Assembly: GCA_016703765.1 (NCBI GenBank)
Contig: JADJBL010000001.1
Location: forward strand, 124,001 to 188,000
Source of the DNA: Saprospirales bacterium
Lineage (GTDB): Bacteria > Bacteroidota > Bacteroidia > Chitinophagales > Saprospiraceae
Direction: 5' to 3'
Length of the DNA stretch: 64,000 bases
Position 1 is the stretch's first letter; each line of letters starts with the position of its first letter. The position numbers and the translations under genes are program-made. A model generated the notes under the pieces. It saw nothing but the letters and a program-made list of their open reading frames with translations, was not told the origin of the DNA and did not search any database. Shown here piece by piece: positions 6,463 to 15,022 of the stretch.

Positions 6463-7917
6463 CTATTGGCAACTGTTTCGGATCAATTGGCGGTAGAAGC
6501 GGATCATACGCTCGTAATTCTCCAGGCTCACCCGTTCATTTACCCCGTGCATGCCTTTCAAATCTTCCAGCGATAACAGCAAGGGCGAAAATCGGTAGAT
6601 ATGCTCGCAGACCTGCCTGTAATGCCGGGAGTCGGTATATCCCGCGCTGACCGAGGGCGCCACCACGGCGCCCGGGAATATTTCGCCGATGGTCTTTTGC
6701 AGGACCTGGAACCCAAAAGACTCCACGGAGGATGGGGCCGGAGGATCTCCCCCGTAATCGCTGTCGGCGATGGATACTTTGATGGAGGGATCGTCGATCA
6801 CTTTTTCGAGGTAGGCCTGAGTCGAGGCGATGGTTTCACCGGGCAGTATCCTGACATTGACGGTCGCCTTGACGCTCAGGGGCAACACGTTGTCCCTGAT
6901 CCCCCCTTCGATCAGGGTAGGCGCCGCGGTGGTCCGGATAATAGCATTGGCTGCGGGGTCTTCGGAGAGTTTCGAAATGAGCACCGGGGAAAACAGCCAG
7001 CGATTGGCCAGCACGATGCGATTGAGGACGCCCATTTCAGGGCCCACATAATCAAAAAATTGTCCGGTGGTCCCGCGCAGGGAGGCGGGGAAAGGGTTTT
7101 GCCGAATGCGCTCCAGGGCAAAGGCCATGGCGCCCACCGCCGTGAAAGAGGGTGGCATGGATGCGTGGCCGCCTTCCGTCCGGTCCAGTTGGAGCGTAAA
7201 GGAAACGAAGCCCTTTTCGGTCACAGCAACGGCGGCTAAAGGCGCTTCCAGGCCTTCCAGCGCATGGGAGATCGCGAAGGAGCCCTCGTCCAGGATGAAT
7301 TCGGGACGGATATCGCGGGATTCGAGCCATTGGCCTATTTGGCGGGCGCCGTTCTTCCCCTGGCTCTCCTCATCGTGCCCGAAAGCCAGGTAGAGCGTCC
7401 GCTCCGGGTAATATTCTTCGCCGATCATCCATTCGATGGCTTCCATGATGGACCAGATGCTCATTTTGTCGTCGAGTGCCCCACGTCCCCAGAGGAAGCC
7501 TTCGGCTATCGTTCCGGAAAAGGGCGGATAACGCCATGGAACCGAATCGGCGGGCACCACATCGAGGTGGCCAAGGAGCAGGACGGGGTTCAGTTTGGTC
7601 TGCTTGCCCGGCCATTTGAACAAGAGGCTTCCGCCTCCGATGCGTTCCACCTGCAATTGGCTGAATACGTTTGGAAAATGAAGTTGCAGGAGGGAATCCA
7701 ACTTACCGAATACCGAGCTGTCGGCGCCCGCGAGCGAGGGGATCTGAATGGCTGCGGAAAGGCGTTCGGAGGCGCCCATTGGCGTCGTATCCTGTGCTAT
7801 GGGTTCTACCTGCACCTGCCGGGACGAAAAAGTAATCGTCCTGCCTGCTACGATTACGACCAGGGCCAGCAAGGAGAGGAAGAAAATCCGGAAAAGCAGG
7901 CGGAAAAAAGATCTCAT
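6463..7917 (-). CDS. M20 family metallopeptidase (PM20D1/carboxypeptidase S-like)
   Basis: A 484-residue membrane-anchored zinc hydrolase. The N-terminus has one hydrophobic anchor (about residues 3-30). Metal-binding motifs of family M20 are visible: GHLDVVPAD (His and the following region), GRGALDDKMS (bridging Asp), GHDEESQGKNG (Glu-Glu), and a late GYTDSRHYR. The dimerisation domain lies between. The closest known type is the PM20D1/Gly-Xaa carboxypeptidase group. A longer frame exists upstream to 8109, but the ATG at 7917 begins the anchor and leaves room for the promoter region shared with the divergent universal stress gene. It ends 1 bp from the convergent VWA gene. Confidence 0.9.
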   Translation of the reverse strand: MRSFFRLLFRIFFLSLLALVVIVAGRTITFSSRQVQVEPIAQDTTPMGASERLSAAIQIPSLAGADSSVFGKLDSLLQLHFPNVFSQLQVERIGGGSLLFKWPGKQTKLNPVLLLGHLDVVPADSVPWRYPPFSGTIAEGFLWGRGALDDKMSIWSIMEAIEWMIGEEYYPERTLYLAFGHDEESQGKNGARQIGQWLESRDIRPEFILDEGSFAISHALEGLEAPLAAVAVTEKGFVSFTLQLDRTEGGHASMPPSFTAVGAMAFALERIRQNPFPASLRGTTGQFFDYVGPEMGVLNRIVLANRWLFSPVLISKLSEDPAANAIIRTTAAPTLIEGGIRDNVLPLSVKATVNVRILPGETIASTQAYLEKVIDDPSIKVSIADSDYGGDPPAPSSVESFGFQVLQKTIGEIFPGAVVAPSVSAGYTDSRHYRQVCEHIYRFSPLLLSLEDLKGMHGVNERVSLENYERMIRFYRQLIRNSCQ

Positions 7918-7975
7918 AAAGGAGCTATATCGGCAAATGTACAAATTTGGATTATCCCCGGCGCACCGGGCCGGT

Positions 7976-8012
7976 TGATGAAAATCATAAAGGTTGTTGA
8001 TCTTAGTCAGCG
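7976..8012. promoter_or_regulatory. paired CRP/FNR-like sites, copy 1
   Basis: Two TGA-N6-TCA sites at 7976-7987 (TTGATGAAAATCAT) and 7998-8009 (TTGATCTTAGTCAGCG). Their centres are 22 bp apart. The same arrangement occurs at 10447-10480 and 12568-12601. The proximal site is about 56 bp before the start of the universal stress gene. A TATATTG sequence at 8033-8039 may be the -7 box. Functional role is inferred. Confidence 0.7.
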
Positions 8013-8059
8013 AAGCGGGATGAAAAGAAGGATATATTGTATGTCCAAACCCATTGACC

Positions 8060-8878
8060 ATGTCAAAGAAAATCCTTTTTCCCACCGATTTCTCTCCGGA
8101 AGCAGCCAACGCCTACCTGTATGCCCATTCGCTTGCAGAGGCCCTGGATGCCCGGATCGACCTGATCAATATCTTCCATTTGCCCATTGGGGATGCCAGC
8201 AACATACCCCCGGATTATATCCAAAAAGTGCTGGACGAATCGGAAGCCGAATCCCTGGAGAAACTCAAGGAATTTGCCCGCCCGTTTTTGGGCAAACCCG
8301 CCTACGGAACCCTTCGACCGGTTTACGGCCTGTTTACGGCAATGGAGATCACGGACCTGGCAAACCAGGAAAATTACGACATGATCGTACTGGGTACTAA
8401 AGGCGAGCGCGGTGCCCTGGAGAAATTCCTTGGAAGCGTCACCAGCGAGGTCATGATGAAAGCCCCCTGTCCGGTGCTCGCCATACCTGCAGAGGCGAAA
8501 TTCAGGCCGGTAGAGCATATTGCCTACGCCACCTCGTTTGAGCCTTCGGATGAACACGCCGTGGAACAATTGATGAAACTGGCGGGTCAGCTGGCAGCCA
8601 AGGTGCATTTTGTAAACGTGAGCACGCGCGGTGAAACCCACTATATCCAGGATGTAAAAATGGAAAAGGATTATCCCTACAATTTCAGCGATTTCAGCGT
8701 GGTGTATCACGCCTCCGTTCGGGAGGGACTGGAGGAATATCTCCAGCAAAGGTCGATGGACTGGCTGGCGCTCTTCATCCCGCAACGGCGTTTATGGGAA
8801 CGTCTTTTCCATACGAGTTTTACCAAGAGGATGGTTTTTCACACCAGGGTACCTCTGTTGGTCTTCCATGGAAAATAG
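8060..8878 (+). CDS. universal stress protein, two Usp domains
   Basis: A 272-residue cytosolic protein with tandem Usp domains. The first starts KKILFPTDFSPEAANAYLYA and carries the ATP-binding-type motif VLGTKGERG followed by LGSVTSEVMMKAPCPVLAIP. The second (from about residue 150) is degenerate and ends with FTKRMVFHTRVPLLVFHG. Such two-domain forms are common in Bacteroidota. The start is the ATG at 8060; a TTG two codons earlier is less likely. It lies downstream of paired CRP/FNR-like sites and converges with the CBS gene array, with 5 bp between the stop codons. A role in energy or oxygen stress is inferred from context. Confidence 0.92.
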   Translation: MSKKILFPTDFSPEAANAYLYAHSLAEALDARIDLINIFHLPIGDASNIPPDYIQKVLDESEAESLEKLKEFARPFLGKPAYGTLRPVYGLFTAMEITDLANQENYDMIVLGTKGERGALEKFLGSVTSEVMMKAPCPVLAIPAEAKFRPVEHIAYATSFEPSDEHAVEQLMKLAGQLAAKVHFVNVSTRGETHYIQDVKMEKDYPYNFSDFSVVYHASVREGLEEYLQQRSMDWLALFIPQRRLWERLFHTSFTKRMVFHTRVPLLVFHGK

Positions 8879-8883
8879 AGATG

Positions 8884-9318
8884 TTAATCCAGACCGCTTT
8901 TCTGAAAAGCGTATTTCAACAAGTCAAACGTAGTGACCAGGCCAACGAGGGTGTTTTTCTCGACGAGGGGGATGGAGTGGAACAAATTTTCGCGGAAGAT
9001 CCCCACGGCCATAGAAATAGAGTCTGTCGGACTCAATTTGACGAGTTCGCGCGTCATCACTTCGCCGATGGTAACATTGGCATGGAAATGCGATCCCTCC
9101 ATATCCTGGTTTTTTTGGAAAGAAGTCCAGACATTGCCCAATCGCAGGTAATCCGACTTGCTGAAAATTCCCACTAAAAAGCCGTCGAGATCCACTACCG
9201 GGAGGTGGTGGATATTGTTTTTCCGGAAGGCATCCGAAGCGGCTTTGAGTGAATCGCCGGGCCGGAGGATGATCAGGTCGGTGGTCATGATGGCAGACAG
9301 GGGCAAATTGAGATCCAT
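8884..9318 (-). CDS. CBS-pair domain protein 1
   Basis: A 144-residue protein made of a single Bateman module (two CBS motifs). The first CBS has IMTTDLIILRPGDS and HHLPVVDLDGFLVGIFSKSD; the second has VMTRELVKLSPTDS and HSIPLVEKNTLVGLVTTFDL. Stand-alone CBS pairs usually bind adenine nucleotides and sense energy charge. The ATG at 9318 was chosen because its product (MDLNLPLSAIM) aligns with the starts of the paralogues at 10295 and 12489. It is the last gene of a three-gene CBS operon. Confidence 0.88.
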   Translation of the reverse strand: MDLNLPLSAIMTTDLIILRPGDSLKAASDAFRKNNIHHLPVVDLDGFLVGIFSKSDYLRLGNVWTSFQKNQDMEGSHFHANVTIGEVMTRELVKLSPTDSISMAVGIFRENLFHSIPLVEKNTLVGLVTTFDLLKYAFQKSGLD

Positions 9319-9337
9319 ACCGTGCATGTTGGGGACC

Positions 9338-9788
9338 TTAAGTAGGGAGAAAAACTTCCTGGTTGAAGAAATAGTTGAGCAGGTCAAAAGTCGTCAGGAT
9401 GCCCACCAGCAATCCTCCCTTGTCGACGATGGGTATGGCGTGGAACAGATTTTCCTTGAAATAGCCGGCAGCTATGGAGATCGAATCTTCCGGCGTGAGG
9501 GTCGCTACCTGCCGGGTCATGACATCTTCGACCAACAGGCTTTTAAACAGCCGGTCGTTGGCGGCGGCCCGCAAATCGGGGACGGAAGAGGGGAAAAGCG
9601 TTTGAAATGGAATAGTAATCCGACTTGCTGATGATCCCCACCACCCTTCCTTCTTCGTCGACCACCGGCAAATGATGAATATCGCTGGACCGGAATACCA
9701 GATGGACTTGTTCCATGGTATCCCCGGGATGGACCGTGAGCACCTCGGTGGTCATGATCTCCTTGATGGAAACGGCATTGCTTGTCAT
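9338..9788 (-). pseudogene. CBS-pair domain protein 2, frameshifted
   Basis: The N-terminal CBS motif (starting MTSNAVSIKEIMTTEVLTVH, with HHLPVVDEEGRVVGIISKSD) is read from 9788 and runs into a stop at 9543. The C-terminal CBS motif (VEDVMTRQVATLTPEDS to LVGILTTFDLLNYFF) continues in another frame and stops at 9338. Removing one base from the four-base G run at plus-strand 9590-9593 joins the halves into a protein with the same layout as its two neighbours. So either a recent frameshift or a sequencing/assembly indel. If the frame is intact in the living cell it is an ordinary CBS pair of about 149 residues. Confidence 0.8.
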
Positions 9789-9830
9789 GGCGAACCGTTT
9801 TTGAAATGGAATAATGGGCCTGTGCCCTTT

Positions 9831-10295
9831 CTATTCGATTGAATCGTCGAGTTCCAGTTCTGCCTCCGGCTCTACCGGGGATTCGAAGCTATATTGCAAA
9901 AGGTCGTGCGAGGTCACCAACCCGATCAACACGCCGTCTTCCACGATGGGGAGCGCATGAAACTTGTTGGCCAGGAAAATATCGGCTGCCAGACCGATGC
10001 TGTCGTCGGGGTCGAGCTGAACCGGGTATTTCGTCATGAACTGTTCGGCCGGCAGGTGTTCGTACACCTTGTTGGCATAGGTCCGGCCCGCAGAATCCAG
10101 AGAAAGGAGATAGGCAATCCGGAAAAAGTCTTCCTTGCTGATGATGCCGATCAGTTTCTCCCCGGAATCCGTAACCGGTATATGGTGAAAAGAATGGGTT
10201 TTAAAAATCTCTCTGATCTTTCGAGCAGTATCGTCTACGCGGACGGTGACCATATTCCTGGTCATGATACTTGAAATGGGAACATTGGGATTCAT
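9831..10295 (-). CDS. CBS-pair domain protein 3
   Basis: A 154-residue Bateman-module protein: VPISSIMTRNMVTVRVDDTA, then HHIPVTDSGEKLIGIISKED for the first CBS, and QFMTKYPVQLDPDDSIGL with HALPIVEDGVLIGLVTSHDL for the second. It ends with an acidic tail. The ATG at 10295 matches the paralogue starts. It is first in the CBS operon. Its leader contains a terminator-like hairpin 21 bp before the start codon, and paired CRP/FNR-like sites lie 150 bp upstream, shared with the divergent coiled-coil gene. Confidence 0.9.
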   Translation of the reverse strand: MNPNVPISSIMTRNMVTVRVDDTARKIREIFKTHSFHHIPVTDSGEKLIGIISKEDFFRIAYLLSLDSAGRTYANKVYEHLPAEQFMTKYPVQLDPDDSIGLAADIFLANKFHALPIVEDGVLIGLVTSHDLLQYSFESPVEPEAELELDDSIE

Positions 10296-10315
10296 GGTTC
10301 TGTATTTTTTGGGTG

Positions 10316-10347
10316 AAAAAAAGGAAGTCACACAAGTGGTGACTTCC
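10316..10347 (-). terminator. terminator-like hairpin in the leader of the CBS operon
   Basis: On the minus strand a perfect 9-bp stem (arms at 10339-10347 and 10323-10331, 7-nt loop) is followed directly by seven T residues (10316-10322), 21 nt before the ATG of CBS protein 3. This is the form of an intrinsic terminator placed inside a 5' leader, so it might act as an attenuator. No leader peptide was recognised. Confidence 0.6.
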
Positions 10348-10446
10348 ATGAACACCTCTCACATATTATTTTTTCTTATCATGGCATAAGCCACCGGACA
10401 TCACCTATTCCTTTTCAAAAATACCAGCAGACAAGACGGGGATGAA

Positions 10447-10483
10447 TGACTTTAATCAGCCATTTTGTTGATTTTGGTCAGCG
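10447..10483. promoter_or_regulatory. paired CRP/FNR-like sites, copy 2
   Basis: TGA-N6-TCA at 10447-10458 (ATGACTTTAATCAG) and at 10469-10480 (TTGATTTTGGTCAGCG), centres 22 bp apart. They lie between the CBS operon and the divergent 129-aa gene. The proximal site shares the extended form TTGATYTTRGTCAGCG with the copy at 7997-8012. Confidence 0.7.
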
Positions 10484-10541
10484 CTTTTTATGTCGGATAA
10501 AGGCGATATTTTGCACCAGAATCTTTTAAAAACGTACCATT

Positions 10542-10931
10542 ATGGAAAAGGAAACAGCCCTGTTGAGCGACCTGCACTTCGAGCACAAGGTGTGGACGAA
10601 CGAACTCGGATTTTTCGAGGATGAAATCCACACCTTCGAGCGCCGTTTGGAAGATCTGGCAAAAAAATACCTGCCCAAACGCGAGGTCATGGTCGATCTG
10701 GAGCACTTTCAAAACCAGTTCATCCGCCAAATAGAGGTGATCAACGAATTGAAGCACGATATCCGGATGCACGAACAATACCTGAGCAGAACAGCCGAAT
10801 TCAAAGCCACTTCGGCAGACCAGCCTGTGTTCAAGGATCACTCCCAGCTGCGGGAAGGCATGGAAATCTTTCGCAAGATATACGCCGAACTGAAAGCCGA
10901 TTTTTTCCGCTATGCGGCAAAATGGATCTAG
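10542..10931 (+). CDS. hypothetical coiled-coil protein, 129 aa
   Basis: A soluble, highly charged and almost wholly helical protein with heptad-like spacing (DEIHTFERRLEDLAKKYLPK, FIRQIEVINELKHDIRMHEQ). No signal peptide, no membrane segment and no recognised domain. The ATG at 10542 is 61 bp after a CRP/FNR-like site. It converges with the thioredoxin/Usp fusion gene with 12 bp between them, and a small palindrome (aggccc/gggcct, 10930-10944) spans the gap. Context suggests membership of the same stress regulon as the Usp and CBS genes; function unknown. Confidence 0.8.
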   Translation: MEKETALLSDLHFEHKVWTNELGFFEDEIHTFERRLEDLAKKYLPKREVMVDLEHFQNQFIRQIEVINELKHDIRMHEQYLSRTAEFKATSADQPVFKDHSQLREGMEIFRKIYAELKADFFRYAAKWI

Positions 10932-10943
10932 GCCCGTTGGGCC

Positions 10944-12038
10944 TTAGCTGGTGGGCACGACCAACAGGGGGAGCTTGGAGTTGATCAGGAGCCGCTTGGT
11001 GACGCTTCGGTGAAAAAAGCGCTCATAAAAACGCCTTTGCAGGGCAGTTAATACGACGAGATCGATTTTTTTCTCTCTCGCGTACTGGTTCAGGCCTTCG
11101 ACAACCGACTCGTTTTTTACCGAAGCGACTTCGACCCTTTGGCCGTTTCGTTGGAAAAGCCGTTCGATCTCGATCGTTTCCCGGTTGAATCCATTCTCCC
11201 TGCTGTCCAGGACGTGTACCAGGTGGAGGTTGGCAGAAAAGAAAACGGTCCATTTGGTGATCCAGCGGAGGATGGCGTCCTCGCCCGGCTGGTATTTGGC
11301 GGCAAAAAGAACATTTCTGTAGCTGCGGTGGGTGACGCCCCTTGGCACAAAGAGCACGGGGCATTTAGCCTGTTGGGATACCTGGGTGGACACCTGGCGC
11401 AGAACCCGGCCCAGAAAACCCGCCTCTCCCGTCGTTCCCATGACGACCAGATCGAACTTCCCCGATCGGGATAGCTCGACGATGGCCTCGGAGGGAAAGC
11501 CCAGAACCACTTCCTGGTCTATCCGCACCGCCGCTAGAACATGCCCTCCATCGAGGGGCGCATTTTCCTCGACAAATTCGCGTAACGATTCGCGCCGGCT
11601 TCGCTCAAAGGTGGCGAGCGGCTCGTCTACGAATGGGTTTCCTTCGTCAAACTCGGGCTGGTACATGTGCACCACCTTGATCGAAGCCTCGACCTCTGCG
11701 GCAAGGGCCTGAGCATAGATAAATGCGCATTTGGAGGATTCGCTGAAGTCCGTGGGAACCAGGATGTTCTTCAGGCGCAGGGTGTTCTGCTCCCTCGCGC
11801 CACAGCGCTCCAGCAGCTCGCGGATCTCTTCCACGCTGAGCACGTCATTTTCCACTACCACCTTGCCGTTGATGAGCAGGGCCGGGGTGGAGGAAATATC
11901 GAACTTCATCAGCTCGTCCACCTCGGTGATCTCCTCCAGGGTGACGTTCAGCGGGTACCGCTTGAGCGCTTCAAGGACATTGTCCTTGAGCGCTTTACTG
12001 CGGCGGCATCCGATGCCCAGTATCTGAAGGTTGATCAT
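10944..12038 (-). CDS. thioredoxin-like / universal stress / universal stress fusion protein
   Basis: A 364-residue fusion. Residues 1-80 look like the small thioredoxin-fold (thioredoxin_3, redox-active disulfide protein 2) family: MINLQILGIGCRRSKALKDN, then STPALLINGKVV with the cis-Pro position. The usual CxxC is reduced to C11-R-R-S. Residues 90-230 are a Usp domain (LKNILVPTDFSESSKCAFIY, VMGTTGEAGFLGRVLRQVS) with a nucleotide-binding glycine motif. Residues 235-364 are a second, weaker Usp domain ending FFHRSVTKRLLINSKLPLLV. It follows the CBS gene at 12061-12489 by 22 bp, so the two are probably co-transcribed. The combination suggests a redox- or nucleotide-responsive stress protein; that is inference. 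Confidence 0.85.
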   Translation of the reverse strand: MINLQILGIGCRRSKALKDNVLEALKRYPLNVTLEEITEVDELMKFDISSTPALLINGKVVVENDVLSVEEIRELLERCGAREQNTLRLKNILVPTDFSESSKCAFIYAQALAAEVEASIKVVHMYQPEFDEGNPFVDEPLATFERSRRESLREFVEENAPLDGGHVLAAVRIDQEVVLGFPSEAIVELSRSGKFDLVVMGTTGEAGFLGRVLRQVSTQVSQQAKCPVLFVPRGVTHRSYRNVLFAAKYQPGEDAILRWITKWTVFFSANLHLVHVLDSRENGFNRETIEIERLFQRNGQRVEVASVKNESVVEGLNQYAREKKIDLVVLTALQRRFYERFFHRSVTKRLLINSKLPLLVVPTS

Positions 12039-12060
12039 TTCGGGAAATCATTTTACAGGT

Positions 12061-12489
12061 TCAGGCCACAAGTGTCCCGTCTGCCAATGCGCGAATGATG
12101 TCGTGGGTGGTGACGATGCCGACCAATTGCTCGTCCTCGACAACCGGAATAGCGTGAAAGCGGTTGATCGCAAAAAGCTCAATCGCCACGTTGATCCGGT
12201 CTGTGGATTGCACCTTGGCGATTTTGGAGGTCATGATCTCATCGGCATTGTATGCCTTCAGGCGGGAATCGTTGACAAACTTGTCCTCTTCGTTTTGGGT
12301 GAAACCCCTGACGAAATAGAGATAGTCCGACTTGCTGATGATGCCGACGACGGTGTGGAAACGCACCACGGGGATGTGGTGGATCTTGTGCTGTTCGAAA
12401 ATATCCCTAACCACCGTGAGCTTGTCTTTTTCATTGACGGTGATCAAATCTTTACTCATAATTTGAGAAATGGGTGCAAGGACATCCAT
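12061..12489 (-). CDS. CBS-pair domain protein 4
   Basis: A 142-residue Bateman module, paralogous to the array at 8.9-10.3 kb. It starts MDVLAPISQIMSKDLITVNE, has HHIPVVRFHTVVGIISKSDY in the first CBS, and IMTSKIAKVQSTDRINVAIE with HAIPVVEDEQLVGIVTTHDI in the second. It is the first gene of a two-gene operon with the thioredoxin/Usp fusion. Paired CRP/FNR-like sites lie about 80-110 bp upstream, shared with the divergent heme-PAS kinase gene. Confidence 0.9.
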   Translation of the reverse strand: MDVLAPISQIMSKDLITVNEKDKLTVVRDIFEQHKIHHIPVVRFHTVVGIISKSDYLYFVRGFTQNEEDKFVNDSRLKAYNADEIMTSKIAKVQSTDRINVAIELFAINRFHAIPVVEDEQLVGIVTTHDIIRALADGTLVA

Positions 12490-12567
12490 AAAATGGTATT
12501 TTTAAAAAATGATAAAATGAGGATTGGGATTTTTACGCAAGGTCAATTTATTGAGCTGCCCTCCGAA

Positions 12568-12604
12568 TGATTTTCATCATTTGGATTTATGATTTTGGTC
12601 AACG
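12568..12604. promoter_or_regulatory. paired CRP/FNR-like sites, copy 3
   Basis: TGA-N6-TCA at 12568-12579 inside the perfect palindrome AATGATTTTCATCATT, and at 12590-12601 (ATGATTTTGGTCAACG). Centres are 22 bp apart, as in copies 1 and 2. It lies between CBS gene 4 and the FixL-like kinase, so the regulator pair may control its own expression. Confidence 0.7.
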
Positions 12605-12671
12605 AATCGCAGGCCTCATTTGGTGCTCGCTATAATTTTTTATCTTGTGCATTTGGAAAAAGGGCTTCGTA

Positions 12672-13964
12672 TTGGATCACAAACTACCAGAAAATCAGGC
12701 CTCGGATGTCGCTCTCAGGCTTCAAGCGGTTATCGAAACTGTCATCGACGGCATTATCACCATCGACGACAAGGGGATCATCGAGACGGTCAATCCGGCT
12801 GCTGCCAGGCTATTCGGCTATGAACCGGAAGAGATCGTCGGCAAAAATATCAAAAACCTGATGCCCTCCCCCTACCGGCAGCAACACGATGGATACATAG
12901 AACGCTATAAAAGCAGCGGGGAGGCCAAGATCATCGGCACCGGCCGGGAGGTCACGGGTATGCGCAAAGACGGGAGCACCTTCCCCATGCGCCTGGCCGT
13001 GAGCGAGGTTTTACTGGAAGAAAGAAGGATCTTTACCGGCATCATCCACGACCTGAGCGACGTGAAACAGGCGGAGGAAAAGATCCGCAAACTCAACGAG
13101 GAACTGGAGGAAAAGGTCATCGAACGGACTGAAGAGCTGGCCAGCGTGGTCAACAAGCTGTTGAATACCAATAAAAAGCTTCAATACGAGGTACAGGAGC
13201 GCAAATCGGCTGAAAATGCCCTGCGCGAAAGCACCCTGGAGATCCAAAAGGCGCTGGAAAAGGAGAAGGAACTGAGCGAGCTCAAGTCGAGGTTTGTCTC
13301 CATGGCTTCGCACGAATTTCGCACGCCGCTGAGCACCATCCTGTCCTCCATTTCCCTGCTGTCGCGCTATACCGAAACCAGCCAGCAGGATAAACGCGAC
13401 AAGCATATCAACCGGATCAAATCCTCGGTCCGCAACCTGACGGGCATCCTCAACGACTTTCTCTCCCTCAGCAAGCTGGAGGAGGGCAAGATCGAAAACC
13501 TGCCTTCGGAGTTCGACATCGGAGAGCTTTGCCCGGAGGTCATCGACGAGATACAGGGCCTGTTGAAAGACGGCCAGGAGATTGTACACGAAGGACTGGG
13601 AAGCCCGCTTTTCGTCAGATGGGACAAGCGGCTGGTCAAGAACATCCTGTTCAACCTTCTGTCCAATGCCATCAAGTATTCCGATGAAGGGAAAAAGATA
13701 TTCATGAAGGAAAGGCTGGAGGAAGATTTTTTCCTAATCGACATCATCGACAAGGGCATCGGGATACCGGATGCCGATCAGCCCTACCTTTTTACCCGCT
13801 TCTTCCGGGCGGCCAATGCCACCAACATCCAGGGAACCGGCCTTGGCCTCAATATCGTCAAACGGTATATTGATCTGGTGGGAGGAAGTATTACCTTTGA
13901 AAGCCAATTGAACGAAGGCACCATTTTTACCGTGTGCCTTCCCTTATTGCAAAAAAGCCTTTGA
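12672..13964 (+). CDS. FixL-like heme-PAS sensor histidine kinase
   Basis: About 430 residues, soluble. Residues 15-130 form a PAS domain very close to the oxygen sensor FixL: FGYEPEEIVGKNIKNLMPSP followed by YRQQHDGYIERY and IIGTGREVTGMRKDGSTFPM. The His of HDGY (residue 72) sits at the FixL heme-ligand position and the Arg 20 residues later (92) at the position of the ligand-gating Arg220 of B. japonicum FixL. A coiled-coil linker (135-200) leads to HisKA (MASHEFRTPLSTIL) and HATPase (NLLSNAIKYS, GTGLGLNIVKRY). No ATG exists at the start; TTG at 12672 is my choice and TTG at 12645 is possible. The response regulator gene starts 2 bp after the stop. Oxygen sensing is predicted from the heme residues, not shown. 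Confidence 0.88.
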   Translation: MDHKLPENQASDVALRLQAVIETVIDGIITIDDKGIIETVNPAAARLFGYEPEEIVGKNIKNLMPSPYRQQHDGYIERYKSSGEAKIIGTGREVTGMRKDGSTFPMRLAVSEVLLEERRIFTGIIHDLSDVKQAEEKIRKLNEELEEKVIERTEELASVVNKLLNTNKKLQYEVQERKSAENALRESTLEIQKALEKEKELSELKSRFVSMASHEFRTPLSTILSSISLLSRYTETSQQDKRDKHINRIKSSVRNLTGILNDFLSLSKLEEGKIENLPSEFDIGELCPEVIDEIQGLLKDGQEIVHEGLGSPLFVRWDKRLVKNILFNLLSNAIKYSDEGKKIFMKERLEEDFFLIDIIDKGIGIPDADQPYLFTRFFRAANATNIQGTGLGLNIVKRYIDLVGGSITFESQLNEGTIFTVCLPLLQKSL

Positions 13965-13966
13965 TA

Positions 13967-15022
13967 ATGAATAAAAAGATCCTCGTCATCGAAGACAATC
14001 CGGATGTGCGGGAAAACCTGGCAGAGATCCTCGAACTATCAAACTACCAGGTCGTGACCGCAGAAAATGGGAAAATAGGCGTGGAGATGGCCTTTGCCGA
14101 AAAACCCGACCTCGTCGTTTGCGACGTGATGATGCCCGAGCTCGACGGGTTCGGCGTGCTCCATATCCTGAGCAAAAAGCCGGAAACCGCCGATATCCCC
14201 TTCATCTTTTTGACGGCCAAAGCCGATAAATCCGACTTCCGAAAGGGCATGAACCTCGGGGCCGACGATTACATCACCAAGCCTTTTGAGGATGTGGAAC
14301 TGCTCGACGCCATCGAGACCCGCCTGAGAAAAAGCGACCGCCTGAAAAAGAGTTTCGACAAAACCGCCAACGGGCTCAACAGCTTTATCAACGAGGCTAA
14401 AGGCTACGAGGCCCTGCGCAAGCTGTCGGAGGACCGCCAGATCAAAAGCTACCAGAAAAAAGAACTGGTCTTCCAGGAGGGCGAGCACCCCCGGCAACTG
14501 TATTTCATCGGCAAGGGGAAGGTCAAGATCTTTAAAACCAACGACGACGGCAAGGAGCCCACCCTCAAGGTCCTCAAGGAAGGTGAGTTTTTCGGACATA
14601 TCGACCTCATCAAAGCCGCCAAATACAACGAATCGGCAGCCGCTACCGAGCAGACCGAGCTGGCCATCATTCCGAAGGACGACTTTTTTGCCCTCCTCTA
14701 CGCCAACAAGGACGTATCCAGCAAAATGATCAAAATGCTGGCCGACGACGTGGTCGAACAGGAAGAACAACTCCTCCACCTGGCCTATCACTCGATCCGC
14801 AAAAGGGTGGCCGAGGCCCTCATCATGCTCCACGAGCGCTACGAAGTGGGTAGCCACTCGAGCATCTCGATCCTGCGCGACGACCTGGCCAGCATCGTCG
14901 GCACCGCCAAGGAATCGGTTATCCGAACCCTGACGGATTTCAAGAACGAAAAACTCATCGACATCGAAAACGGGGTCATCACCATCCTGGATATGAAGAA
15001 GCTGACGGCCATGCCTAACTAA
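13967..15022 (+). CDS. response regulator: receiver fused to CRP/FNR-family regulator
   Basis: A 351-residue protein. Residues 1-120 are a receiver domain (ILVIEDNPDVREN, phospho-acceptor Asp53 in VVCDVMMPELDG, Thr/Lys at FLTAKAD and YITKPFE). Residues about 155-265 are a cyclic-nucleotide-binding-fold effector domain (LVFQEGEHPRQLYFIGKGKV, KEGEFFGHIDL). Residues 275-345 are a Crp-type winged helix (LRDDLASIVGTAKESVIRTL). In the recognition helix the Glu and Arg shared by CRP and FNR are kept (AKESVIR), which suits TGA/TCA half-sites. It lacks the cysteine cluster of true FNR. It thus merges the roles of FixJ and FixK in one chain, paired with the adjacent heme-PAS kinase. Start ATG overlaps nothing and lies 2 bp after the kinase stop. 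Confidence 0.92.
   Translation: MNKKILVIEDNPDVRENLAEILELSNYQVVTAENGKIGVEMAFAEKPDLVVCDVMMPELDGFGVLHILSKKPETADIPFIFLTAKADKSDFRKGMNLGADDYITKPFEDVELLDAIETRLRKSDRLKKSFDKTANGLNSFINEAKGYEALRKLSEDRQIKSYQKKELVFQEGEHPRQLYFIGKGKVKIFKTNDDGKEPTLKVLKEGEFFGHIDLIKAAKYNESAAATEQTELAIIPKDDFFALLYANKDVSSKMIKMLADDVVEQEEQLLHLAYHSIRKRVAEALIMLHERYEVGSHSSISILRDDLASIVGTAKESVIRTLTDFKNEKLIDIENGVITILDMKKLTAMPN

Follow-up and report, generated by a model that had tools for sequence, protein, structure and literature searches.

A FixL-type kinase, a fused receiver-CRP/FNR regulator and tandem promoter sites: a probable low-oxygen regulon core in Saprospiraceae

The locus beside described oxygen-responsive systems

The closest described relatives of the system presented here are the FixL-FixJ-FixK cascade, FNR and ANR, the DosR system of mycobacteria, the lxa locus of Burkholderia, and CRP. 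The subject is a stretch of 64,000 nucleotides from a Saprospirales bacterium (contig JADJBL010000001.1, positions 124,001 to 188,000; the window in what follows), in which three pairs of TGA-N6-TCA sites with a pitch of exactly 22 bp lie in divergent spacers close to genes of a FixL-type histidine kinase and of a receiver fused to a CRP/FNR-type DNA-binding protein. It is probable that these two proteins, with the activator acting on the tandem sites, are the core of a low-oxygen regulon. Papers are cited by their PubMed Central (PMC) numbers, and statements about them refer to excerpts of these sources.

FixJ consists of a receiver and a LuxR-type helix-turn-helix (HTH) output. Like the FixL-FixJ-FixK cascade, the locus has a FixL-type haem-PAS kinase and a CRP/FNR-type activator without an iron-sulphur cluster, but the receiver of FixJ and the CRP fold of FixK are one protein here, and there is no LuxR-type output. 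Targets are shared as well, since the known cascade acts among other genes on the cco (cbb3) operon, on hemN and on its own regulators (PMC4999443). What differs is that the putative targets near this locus are chiefly kinase, CBS-pair and universal stress protein (Usp) genes, and that the sites come in fixed tandem pairs. The regulator is no FixJ, as its output is of the CRP type, and no FixK, which would be a CRP/FNR protein with neither cysteine cluster nor receiver, as an N-terminal receiver is fused to it. The best reading is a FixL-FixJ-FixK cascade collapsed into two proteins.

With FNR and ANR the system shares the half-site pattern TGAY-N4-RTCA, that of FNR and FixK, as well as the -41.5 placement and low-oxygen targets. 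The latter include Usp in P. aeruginosa (PMC6127331). Unlike FNR, which has four cysteines and an oxygen-labile iron-sulphur cluster, the regulator (P0001) has no N-terminal cysteine cluster; its single Cys lies in the receiver (the 24 aligned proteins have 1 to 3), and an FNR-type cluster is therefore not present. The signal would enter via the receiver. At E. coli yfiD, FNR binds at -41.5 and there is a down-regulating site at -93.5, and a second site at many other upstream positions still permitted induction (PMC11264516); no natural set of sites at 22-bp spacing is mentioned in the excerpts of FNR literature compared.

DosR and lxa are functional analogues that are rich in Usp. DosR is a LuxR/NarL-type regulator, and its system has a CBS protein and haem kinases. 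CRP resembles the regulator in its fold and in its E-x3-R recognition helix. It binds cyclic AMP by Glu72, Arg82 and Ser83, and here lies the difference, since in an alignment with CRP chains the Glu and Arg are replaced in the regulator (GHI stands in place of GEL, and the Arg-Ser pair in ERS is lost). Usp genes number six in lxa, where there is also a heat-shock protein, and ten in DosR, FixLJ controls FixK in a relative, and neither a receiver-CRP fusion nor a tandem 22-bp design is found in the excerpted account of DosR and lxa (PMC6127331). No paper describing this design was found in the open-licence PMC literature, which is weak evidence, as only open-licence papers were covered. The fused receiver-CRP/FNR activator, the FixL-type kinase and the composite tandem promoter are a variant of the FixK/FNR kind.

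The original prediction had placed a receiver-CRP/FNR fusion beside the third pair, and the gene there indeed encodes PF00072, PF00027 and PF13545, of which the latter two, a cyclic nucleotide monophosphate-like domain and a Crp-type HTH, assign the protein to the CRP/FNR superfamily. Its predicted structure (predicted local distance difference test 77, predicted template modelling score 0.38) matches CRP structures; the model confirms, as a prediction, the CRP fold and is silent on receiver pairing. In CRP and FNR, Glu and Arg of the recognition helix contact TGA; their spacing is kept in the regulator's helix GTAKESVIRTL, which is near-invariant in the 24 aligned proteins, and E-x3-R is kept in all 24 rows and in 23 of 23 distant loci. 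The regulator is the second gene of the kinase-regulator operon, the kinase stop codon ending at 13964 and the regulator likely starting with ATG at 13967. The PAS domain of the kinase (P0002) has FixL as its best PDB match (1d06, E value 4e-33; further 8js5 and 1dp6), and His81 (YRQQHDGY) and Arg101 (IIGTGR) align with the proximal haem His and the distal Arg, the two residues with known roles in the FixL PAS, so the window kinase has a FixL-type haem PAS by sequence. Among 80 aligned kinases, the phosphorylated His is present in 80, the haem His in 76, the distal Arg in 69 and an Ile in 62, and as the haem His occurs also in un-FixL-like PAS domains (L002, L003, L204), the number of FixL-type kinases is more safely put at 62 to 69 of 80. 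Other PAS types occur among more distant kinase orthologues.

Pitch of the paired sites and distance to the -7 box

Three exact TGA-N6-TCA pairs with a distance of 22 bp are present in the window and none besides, and a search tolerating up to two mismatches returned the same three. In the two-mismatch shuffle control the mean was 1.66 matches and 23 shuffles reached three, so the weight of the window pairs rests on their exactness. A Poisson estimate from the 27 single sites (13.5 expected from shuffles) gives 0.011 pairs at one given distance, and three pairs at one distance have a chance of P ~2e-7, or ~1.5e-5 allowing 60 distances. This bears out the original prediction, which had considered the pairs unlikely to be accidental and had put the sites at 7976/7998, 10447/10469 and 12568/12590, all of them exact on re-scan. 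It had also placed every pair in a divergent spacer, as open reading frames (ORFs) and Pfam families confirm: pair 1 lies between the M20 peptidase (-, 7917) and Usp (+, 8060) genes, pair 2 between the first of several consecutive CBS genes (-, 10295) and the gene of a 129-aa protein (+, 10542), and pair 3 between a CBS gene (-, 12489) and the PAS histidine kinase gene (+, ~12645). As for the proposed common flank of the proximal sites, TTGATYTTRGTCAGCG is exact in pairs 1 and 2, and pair 3 reads ATGATTTTGGTCAACG.

Relatives were compared in two samples. The family sample comprises 199 genomes of one family, that of L008 (a Saprospiraceae metagenome-assembled genome), with the regulator as query; 123 of them had a match with an E value of 1e-90 or better. 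Loci of about 20 kb around the regulator gene, or as much as the contig allowed, were taken from 80 of these 123, roughly by match strength and often skipping short contigs, and together with L001 to L008 (L005 and L008 are also from the family sample) they make up 88 loci with 1,508,470 bases and 1029 single sites. Only L001 to L008 of the 80 loci of a contig scan entered the spacing counts, because that scan used receiver-domain patterns. The phylum sample comprises 247 Bacteroidota genomes, six of them already seen earlier, with a regulator threshold of 1e-55. The genomes are separate species yet related, so genome counts are non-independent events, and as genes were called by a simple longest-ORF method, start codons and gene distances are approximate. 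A strict pair is TGAY-N4-RTCA-N10-TGAY-N4-RTCA, and totals of 123 and 131 pairs include the three of the window.

In the 88 loci, TGA-N6-TCA sites were 22 bp apart in 110 cases, 23 bp in 18 and 21 bp in one, and all remaining distances up to 60 bp gave 50 pairs altogether. Of the other 63 triplet palindromes the best at 22 bp was TTT with 11, the next having 3, and TGA palindromes whose gap was anything from 0 to 14 other than 6 gave 0 or 1 each. Pairs at 22 or 23 bp were present in 64 of the 88 loci, and in 57 of the 86 loci in which the regulator gene was called they lay within 3 kb of it. Genome-wide, the family sample had 590 strict pairs in 136 of 199 genomes, compared with 10 matches in 8 genomes when the pitch was set to 28 bp and 3 when the pattern was reversed. 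Of 131 pairs, 69 were between divergent genes, 52 between genes of the same direction, one between convergent genes and three at contig edges, and only 6 lay deep in an ORF, as compared to 81% of 5000 random positions. That the window has roughly twice as many TGA-N6-TCA sites as its shuffles might hint at chance or composition, but against 590 pairs the controls are so low that such an origin is practically negligible; the spacing, gap, triplet, reversed-pattern and random-position controls rule it out. The condition under which the original prediction was to fail, pairs no more common before stress genes than elsewhere, was examined in these relatives; the idea survived, and the pairs are mostly intergenic. 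The paired-site promoter design is widely conserved in this group of bacteria. At two places, L209 (G065) and G215:C2:2518584, three TGA-N6-TCA sites follow each other in 22-bp steps.

Class II CRP/FNR activators touch RNA polymerase from position -41.5. In one direction or both, 108 of 123 pairs have a Bacteroidota -7 box TAnnTTTG, with at least 4 of 6 fixed bases, that starts 23 bp after the proximal site; other offsets from 15 to 45 give 3 to 29 (29 at 22, 28 at 34). When 5 or more of the 6 bases are required, the box is at +23 in 87 of the 192 directions that face a gene, at +22 in 2 and at +24 in 7. Exact TAnnTTTG and TAnnTTGY boxes occur in these directions 34 and 17 times at +23, and 2 and 8 times at +24, the offsets beyond averaging 0.15 and 0.13. 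As both box types sit at -12 to -5 in Flavobacterium psychrophilum (PMC9723704, in the excerpt used), a box at +23 puts the centre of the proximal site at -41.5 and that of the distal site at -63.5, which is a class II-type placement as judged from the box. The TAnnTTGY type, which accounts for 17 of the 51 exact +23 boxes behind pairs and is also found at the window usp promoter, has been assigned to a possible alternative sigma factor (PMC9723704). Toward the M20 peptidase, TACATTTG lies one helical turn beyond the usual 23 bp; a box at offset 34 is raised also in relatives (28 of 123 pairs), mostly where there is a +23 box too (21 of 28 directions).

The need for the second site can be judged from anchors that consist of an exact site and an exact box, chosen without regard to the sequence upstream. 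Looking upstream by 22 or 23 bp, one finds an exact partner for 55 of 73 such anchors and a partner with 5 of 6 bases for another 9, whereas 8 have at most 3 of 6 bases there; control anchors (ACT-N6-AGT, one strand, n=282) gave no exact partner and 4 with 5 of 6. The two sites could also be independent, each serving one of two divergent genes, and the 69 divergent pairs would suit this, as 17 of them show, on either side, a +23 box with 4 or more of the 6 bases, and so would the box at +23 on 9 of 70 sides without a called gene (other offsets 0 to 3), some of which may be promoters of missed genes. The 52 pairs between same-direction genes, however, retain both sites and the exact pitch, the box is rarer on gene-less sides (9/70) than on gene-facing ones (87/192), and the upstream partner is there in 64 of 73 anchors, so independent sites are improbable. 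By the same counts it is unlikely for most cases that the pairs merely reflect divergent genes. As pairs with a single gene keep both sites, cooperation is likelier, and we infer that binding is probably cooperative rather than directed at two independent promoters.

Co-occurrence with the regulator and genes behind the pairs

Strict pairs go together with the regulator. Of the 123 family genomes that have it, 105 contain at least one (mean 4.0), compared with 31 of the 76 that lack a match at 1e-90 (mean 1.3; Fisher odds 8.5, p 9e-11). Across the phylum, pairs occur in 24 of 38 genomes that have the regulator (70 pairs) and in 8 of 209 that do not (8 pairs; odds 43, p 5e-17), and all 16 phylum genomes with at least two strict pairs carry it.

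Several findings weigh against the two-protein core acting on these sites. Pair 3, examined on both sides, lacks a good -7 box at +23, and the box of pair 1 toward usp is of the TAnnTTGY type. No strict pair is found in 14 of the 38 phylum genomes and in 18 of the 123 family genomes that have the regulator, 8 of the 209 phylum genomes without it have one pair each, and 31 of the 76 family genomes that lack a 1e-90 match have at least one. Some orthologous kinases with pairs, such as that of L002, have a PAS domain unlike FixL, so the signal may differ outside the clade. Among the loci examined from genomes that have the regulator but no strict pair, relaxed pairs are present in 6 of 10 in the family sample and in 2 of 14 in the phylum sample. 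When 15 of the 31 family genomes were rechecked at a loose threshold, 11 had a weaker full-length match and G131 had the C-terminal part and a separate receiver hit, while G038, G089 and G162 had receiver-only hits, which is a further point against; the assemblies of G038 and G162 are highly fragmented, that of G089 less. G006 and G011, outside the family sample, have strong regulator matches.

These three genomes could mean that another protein of the CRP/FNR superfamily (FNR, HcpR or a plain CRP-like protein) is the main binder and the receiver-CRP protein merely a neighbour, and FNR-like tandem sites that occur once in some alphaproteobacterial genomes point the same way. However, 8 of the 10 CRP-like hits in G038, G089 and G162 read SRQTVT in the recognition helix, without the Glu and Arg (the other two are incomplete or unaligned there), whereas receiver-CRP proteins keep E-x3-R; a plain CRP/FNR binder was rejected for these genomes on that account. 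Taken with the phylum-wide association and the 16 multi-pair genomes, this makes another main binder quite unlikely. G089 (L238, L239, L240) has three strict pairs, one with a perfect +23 box, yet receiver-only hits, and stays an exception, as the CRP-like hits whose helix could be read have a different one.

In the order of Mameliella (G450), which belongs to the Alphaproteobacteria, 25 of 121 genomes have one or two matches to the pair pattern. In 13 of these 25 there is a GC-rich palindrome of clearly different sequence, TGACCRYGGTCA, which is itself paired at 22 bp, once in each genome, and looks like the tandem operator of another regulator. FNR-like tandem sites thus exist elsewhere but are few there, and the 22-bp pitch is not unique to CRP/FNR. 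A regulator of an unrelated family could therefore bind such pairs, or they could be repressor operators, but the pattern is that of FNR and FixK, classic FNR/FixK genes (cbb3, FixI, FixS and HemN, named from representatives) stand behind the pairs, and -41.5, the centre deduced from the box, is a place for activators, all of which makes this very unlikely. The receiver-CRP/FNR protein remains the preferred binder.

The target set, drawn from the 88 loci together with the window, consists of 183 distinct genes that face a pair, family names (Pfam/NCBIfam) being those of one representative per cluster. Pairs are faced by 37 of 80 kinase, 32 of 80 CBS and 23 of 123 Usp genes, 13 of 16 genes of an 80-aa protein with a hydrophobic N-terminal half, 9 of 14 of a 255-aa protein, 8 of 17 FixI-type ATPase, 6 of 14 CcoNO fusion, 5 of 10 Hsp20 and 5 of 5 HemN genes (NCBIfam match above cut-off), and the regulator gene itself in 5 of 88, besides smaller groups. 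The commonest divergent case is CBS/kinase (23), arranged as at window pair 3. The kinase gene is the commonest neighbour of pairs, with 21 of its 37 cases having a +23 box that keeps 4 or more of 6 bases, and the proposed self-control of the kinase-regulator operon therefore gains support from relatives; it rests on these, because no -7 box occupies the usual position behind pair 3 of the window. Pairs elsewhere in the genomes (39 stretches) face Usp, CBS, FixI, FixS, multihaem cytochrome, cytochrome c peroxidase, rhodanese, YceI, phosphate transporters, fatty acid hydroxylase and proteins of unknown function. The respiratory targets resemble the FNR/FixK set and the Usp-rich part resembles DosR and lxa. 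With kinase, CBS and Usp leading behind the pairs and the pairs co-occurring with the regulator, the predicted single regulon of stress genes appears, as far as sequence can tell, to hold, and the finding is larger than first seen, as a FixL-type haem PAS and a fixed distance from site to -7 box are added.

Small conserved families stand directly behind pairs (~80 aa, L171:9221-9445; ~255 aa, L138:14979-15728; ~125 aa, L161:18771-19121); their representatives have no Pfam or NCBIfam match, and they are candidate low-oxygen genes. A distant relative (24% identity) of the window's 129-aa protein, a putative coiled coil according to the original prediction, is found behind a pair with a perfect box in L221. 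The window features are collected in Table 1. Between two intact CBS-pair genes there is a third (9330-9790, minus strand) whose frame is broken, with the halves in different frames, and which is either a pseudogene or an assembly error.

Table 1. Genes, paired sites and -7 boxes in the window
Feature	Position	Strand	Basis or remark
M20 family peptidase gene	6463..7917 (ATG at 7917)	-	Pfam PF01546
Possible -7 box toward M20 peptidase, 34 bp from pair 1	7934..7941	-	TACATTTG; perfect TAnnTTTG
Pair 1 distal site, ~-63.5 for usp	7976..7987	.	exact TGA-N6-TCA
Pair 1 proximal site, ~-41.5 for usp	7998..8009	.	exact TGA-N6-TCA
-7 box for usp, +23 from proximal site	8033..8040	+	TATATTGT; TAnnTTGY type, 4/6 vs TAnnTTTG
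Universal stress protein gene (usp)	8060..8878	+	Pfam PF00582
CBS-pair protein gene, probable end of the CBS operon that starts at pair 2	8884..9342	-	Pfam PF00571
CBS-pair protein gene, first behind pair 2	9831..10295	-	Pfam PF00571
-7 box toward CBS operon, exactly 23 bp from pair 2	10416..10423	-	TATTTTTG
Pair 2 site proximal to CBS operon (~-41.5)	10447..10458	.	exact TGA-N6-TCA
Pair 2 second site	10469..10480	.	exact TGA-N6-TCA
129-aa protein gene	10542..10931	+	small family, no Pfam/NCBIfam match
Thioredoxin_3 and two Usp domains, likely operon behind CBS 12061-12489	10944..12038	-	Pfam PF13192, PF00582
CBS-pair protein gene facing pair 3	12061..12489	-	Pfam PF00571
Pair 3 first site	12568..12579	.	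exact TGA-N6-TCA
Pair 3 second site	12590..12601	.	exact TGA-N6-TCA
PAS histidine kinase, FixL-type haem PAS, start codon uncertain	12645..13964	+	Pfam; FixL 1d06
Receiver fused to CRP/FNR-type DNA-binding protein	13967..15022	+	Pfam PF00072, PF00027, PF13545; predicted CRP fold

Proposed mechanism and meaning for the Saprospiraceae

From the sites, their pitch and box distance, the co-occurrence, the target families and the domain content, we infer DNA binding, phosphorylation, low-oxygen activation and cooperativity as follows. The FixL-type kinase would sense oxygen through its haem PAS and, to judge from the common operon and the domains, phosphorylate the receiver of the neighbouring protein. 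The CRP/FNR-type half of that protein would then bind TGAY-N4-RTCA as dimers, two of them side by side at a distance of 22 bp, about two helical turns, and probably cooperatively, with the proximal dimer at about -41.5 activating transcription and the second at about -63.5. In the window the putative targets are Usp, the CBS-pair proteins, thioredoxin-Usp and the 129-aa protein, and in relatives they would include the cbb3 oxidase with its assembly genes, HemN and Hsp20; self-control of the kinase-regulator operon is probable. Most likely the paired-site design thus lets an oxygen-sensing kinase and its CRP-like partner co-induce genes for stress and for low-oxygen respiration. A more tentative suggestion is that the receiver itself demands the tandem site, in that phosphorylated receivers may pair between adjacent dimers, so that only a pair locked at 22 bp on one face of the helix is active. 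If so, oxygen would be read as a switch-like, cooperative occupancy of a composite -41.5/-63.5 promoter, and this would be a third wiring from oxygen to CRP/FNR, beside the cluster of FNR and the relay from FixJ to FixK.

In environmental Bacteroidota such as the Saprospiraceae, low-oxygen gene control is little known, and one Saprospiraceae CRP/FNR homologue has been assigned to carbon sensing (PMC8510549, in the excerpt used). The composite promoter described here is readable, with two sites 22 bp apart and 23 bp to the -7 box, and as regulator, promoter and targets can all be read from sequence alone, such regulons are predictable in uncultured genomes. The mechanism of the fused receiver is directly testable, and small conserved genes without a known domain gain a likely role at low oxygen.

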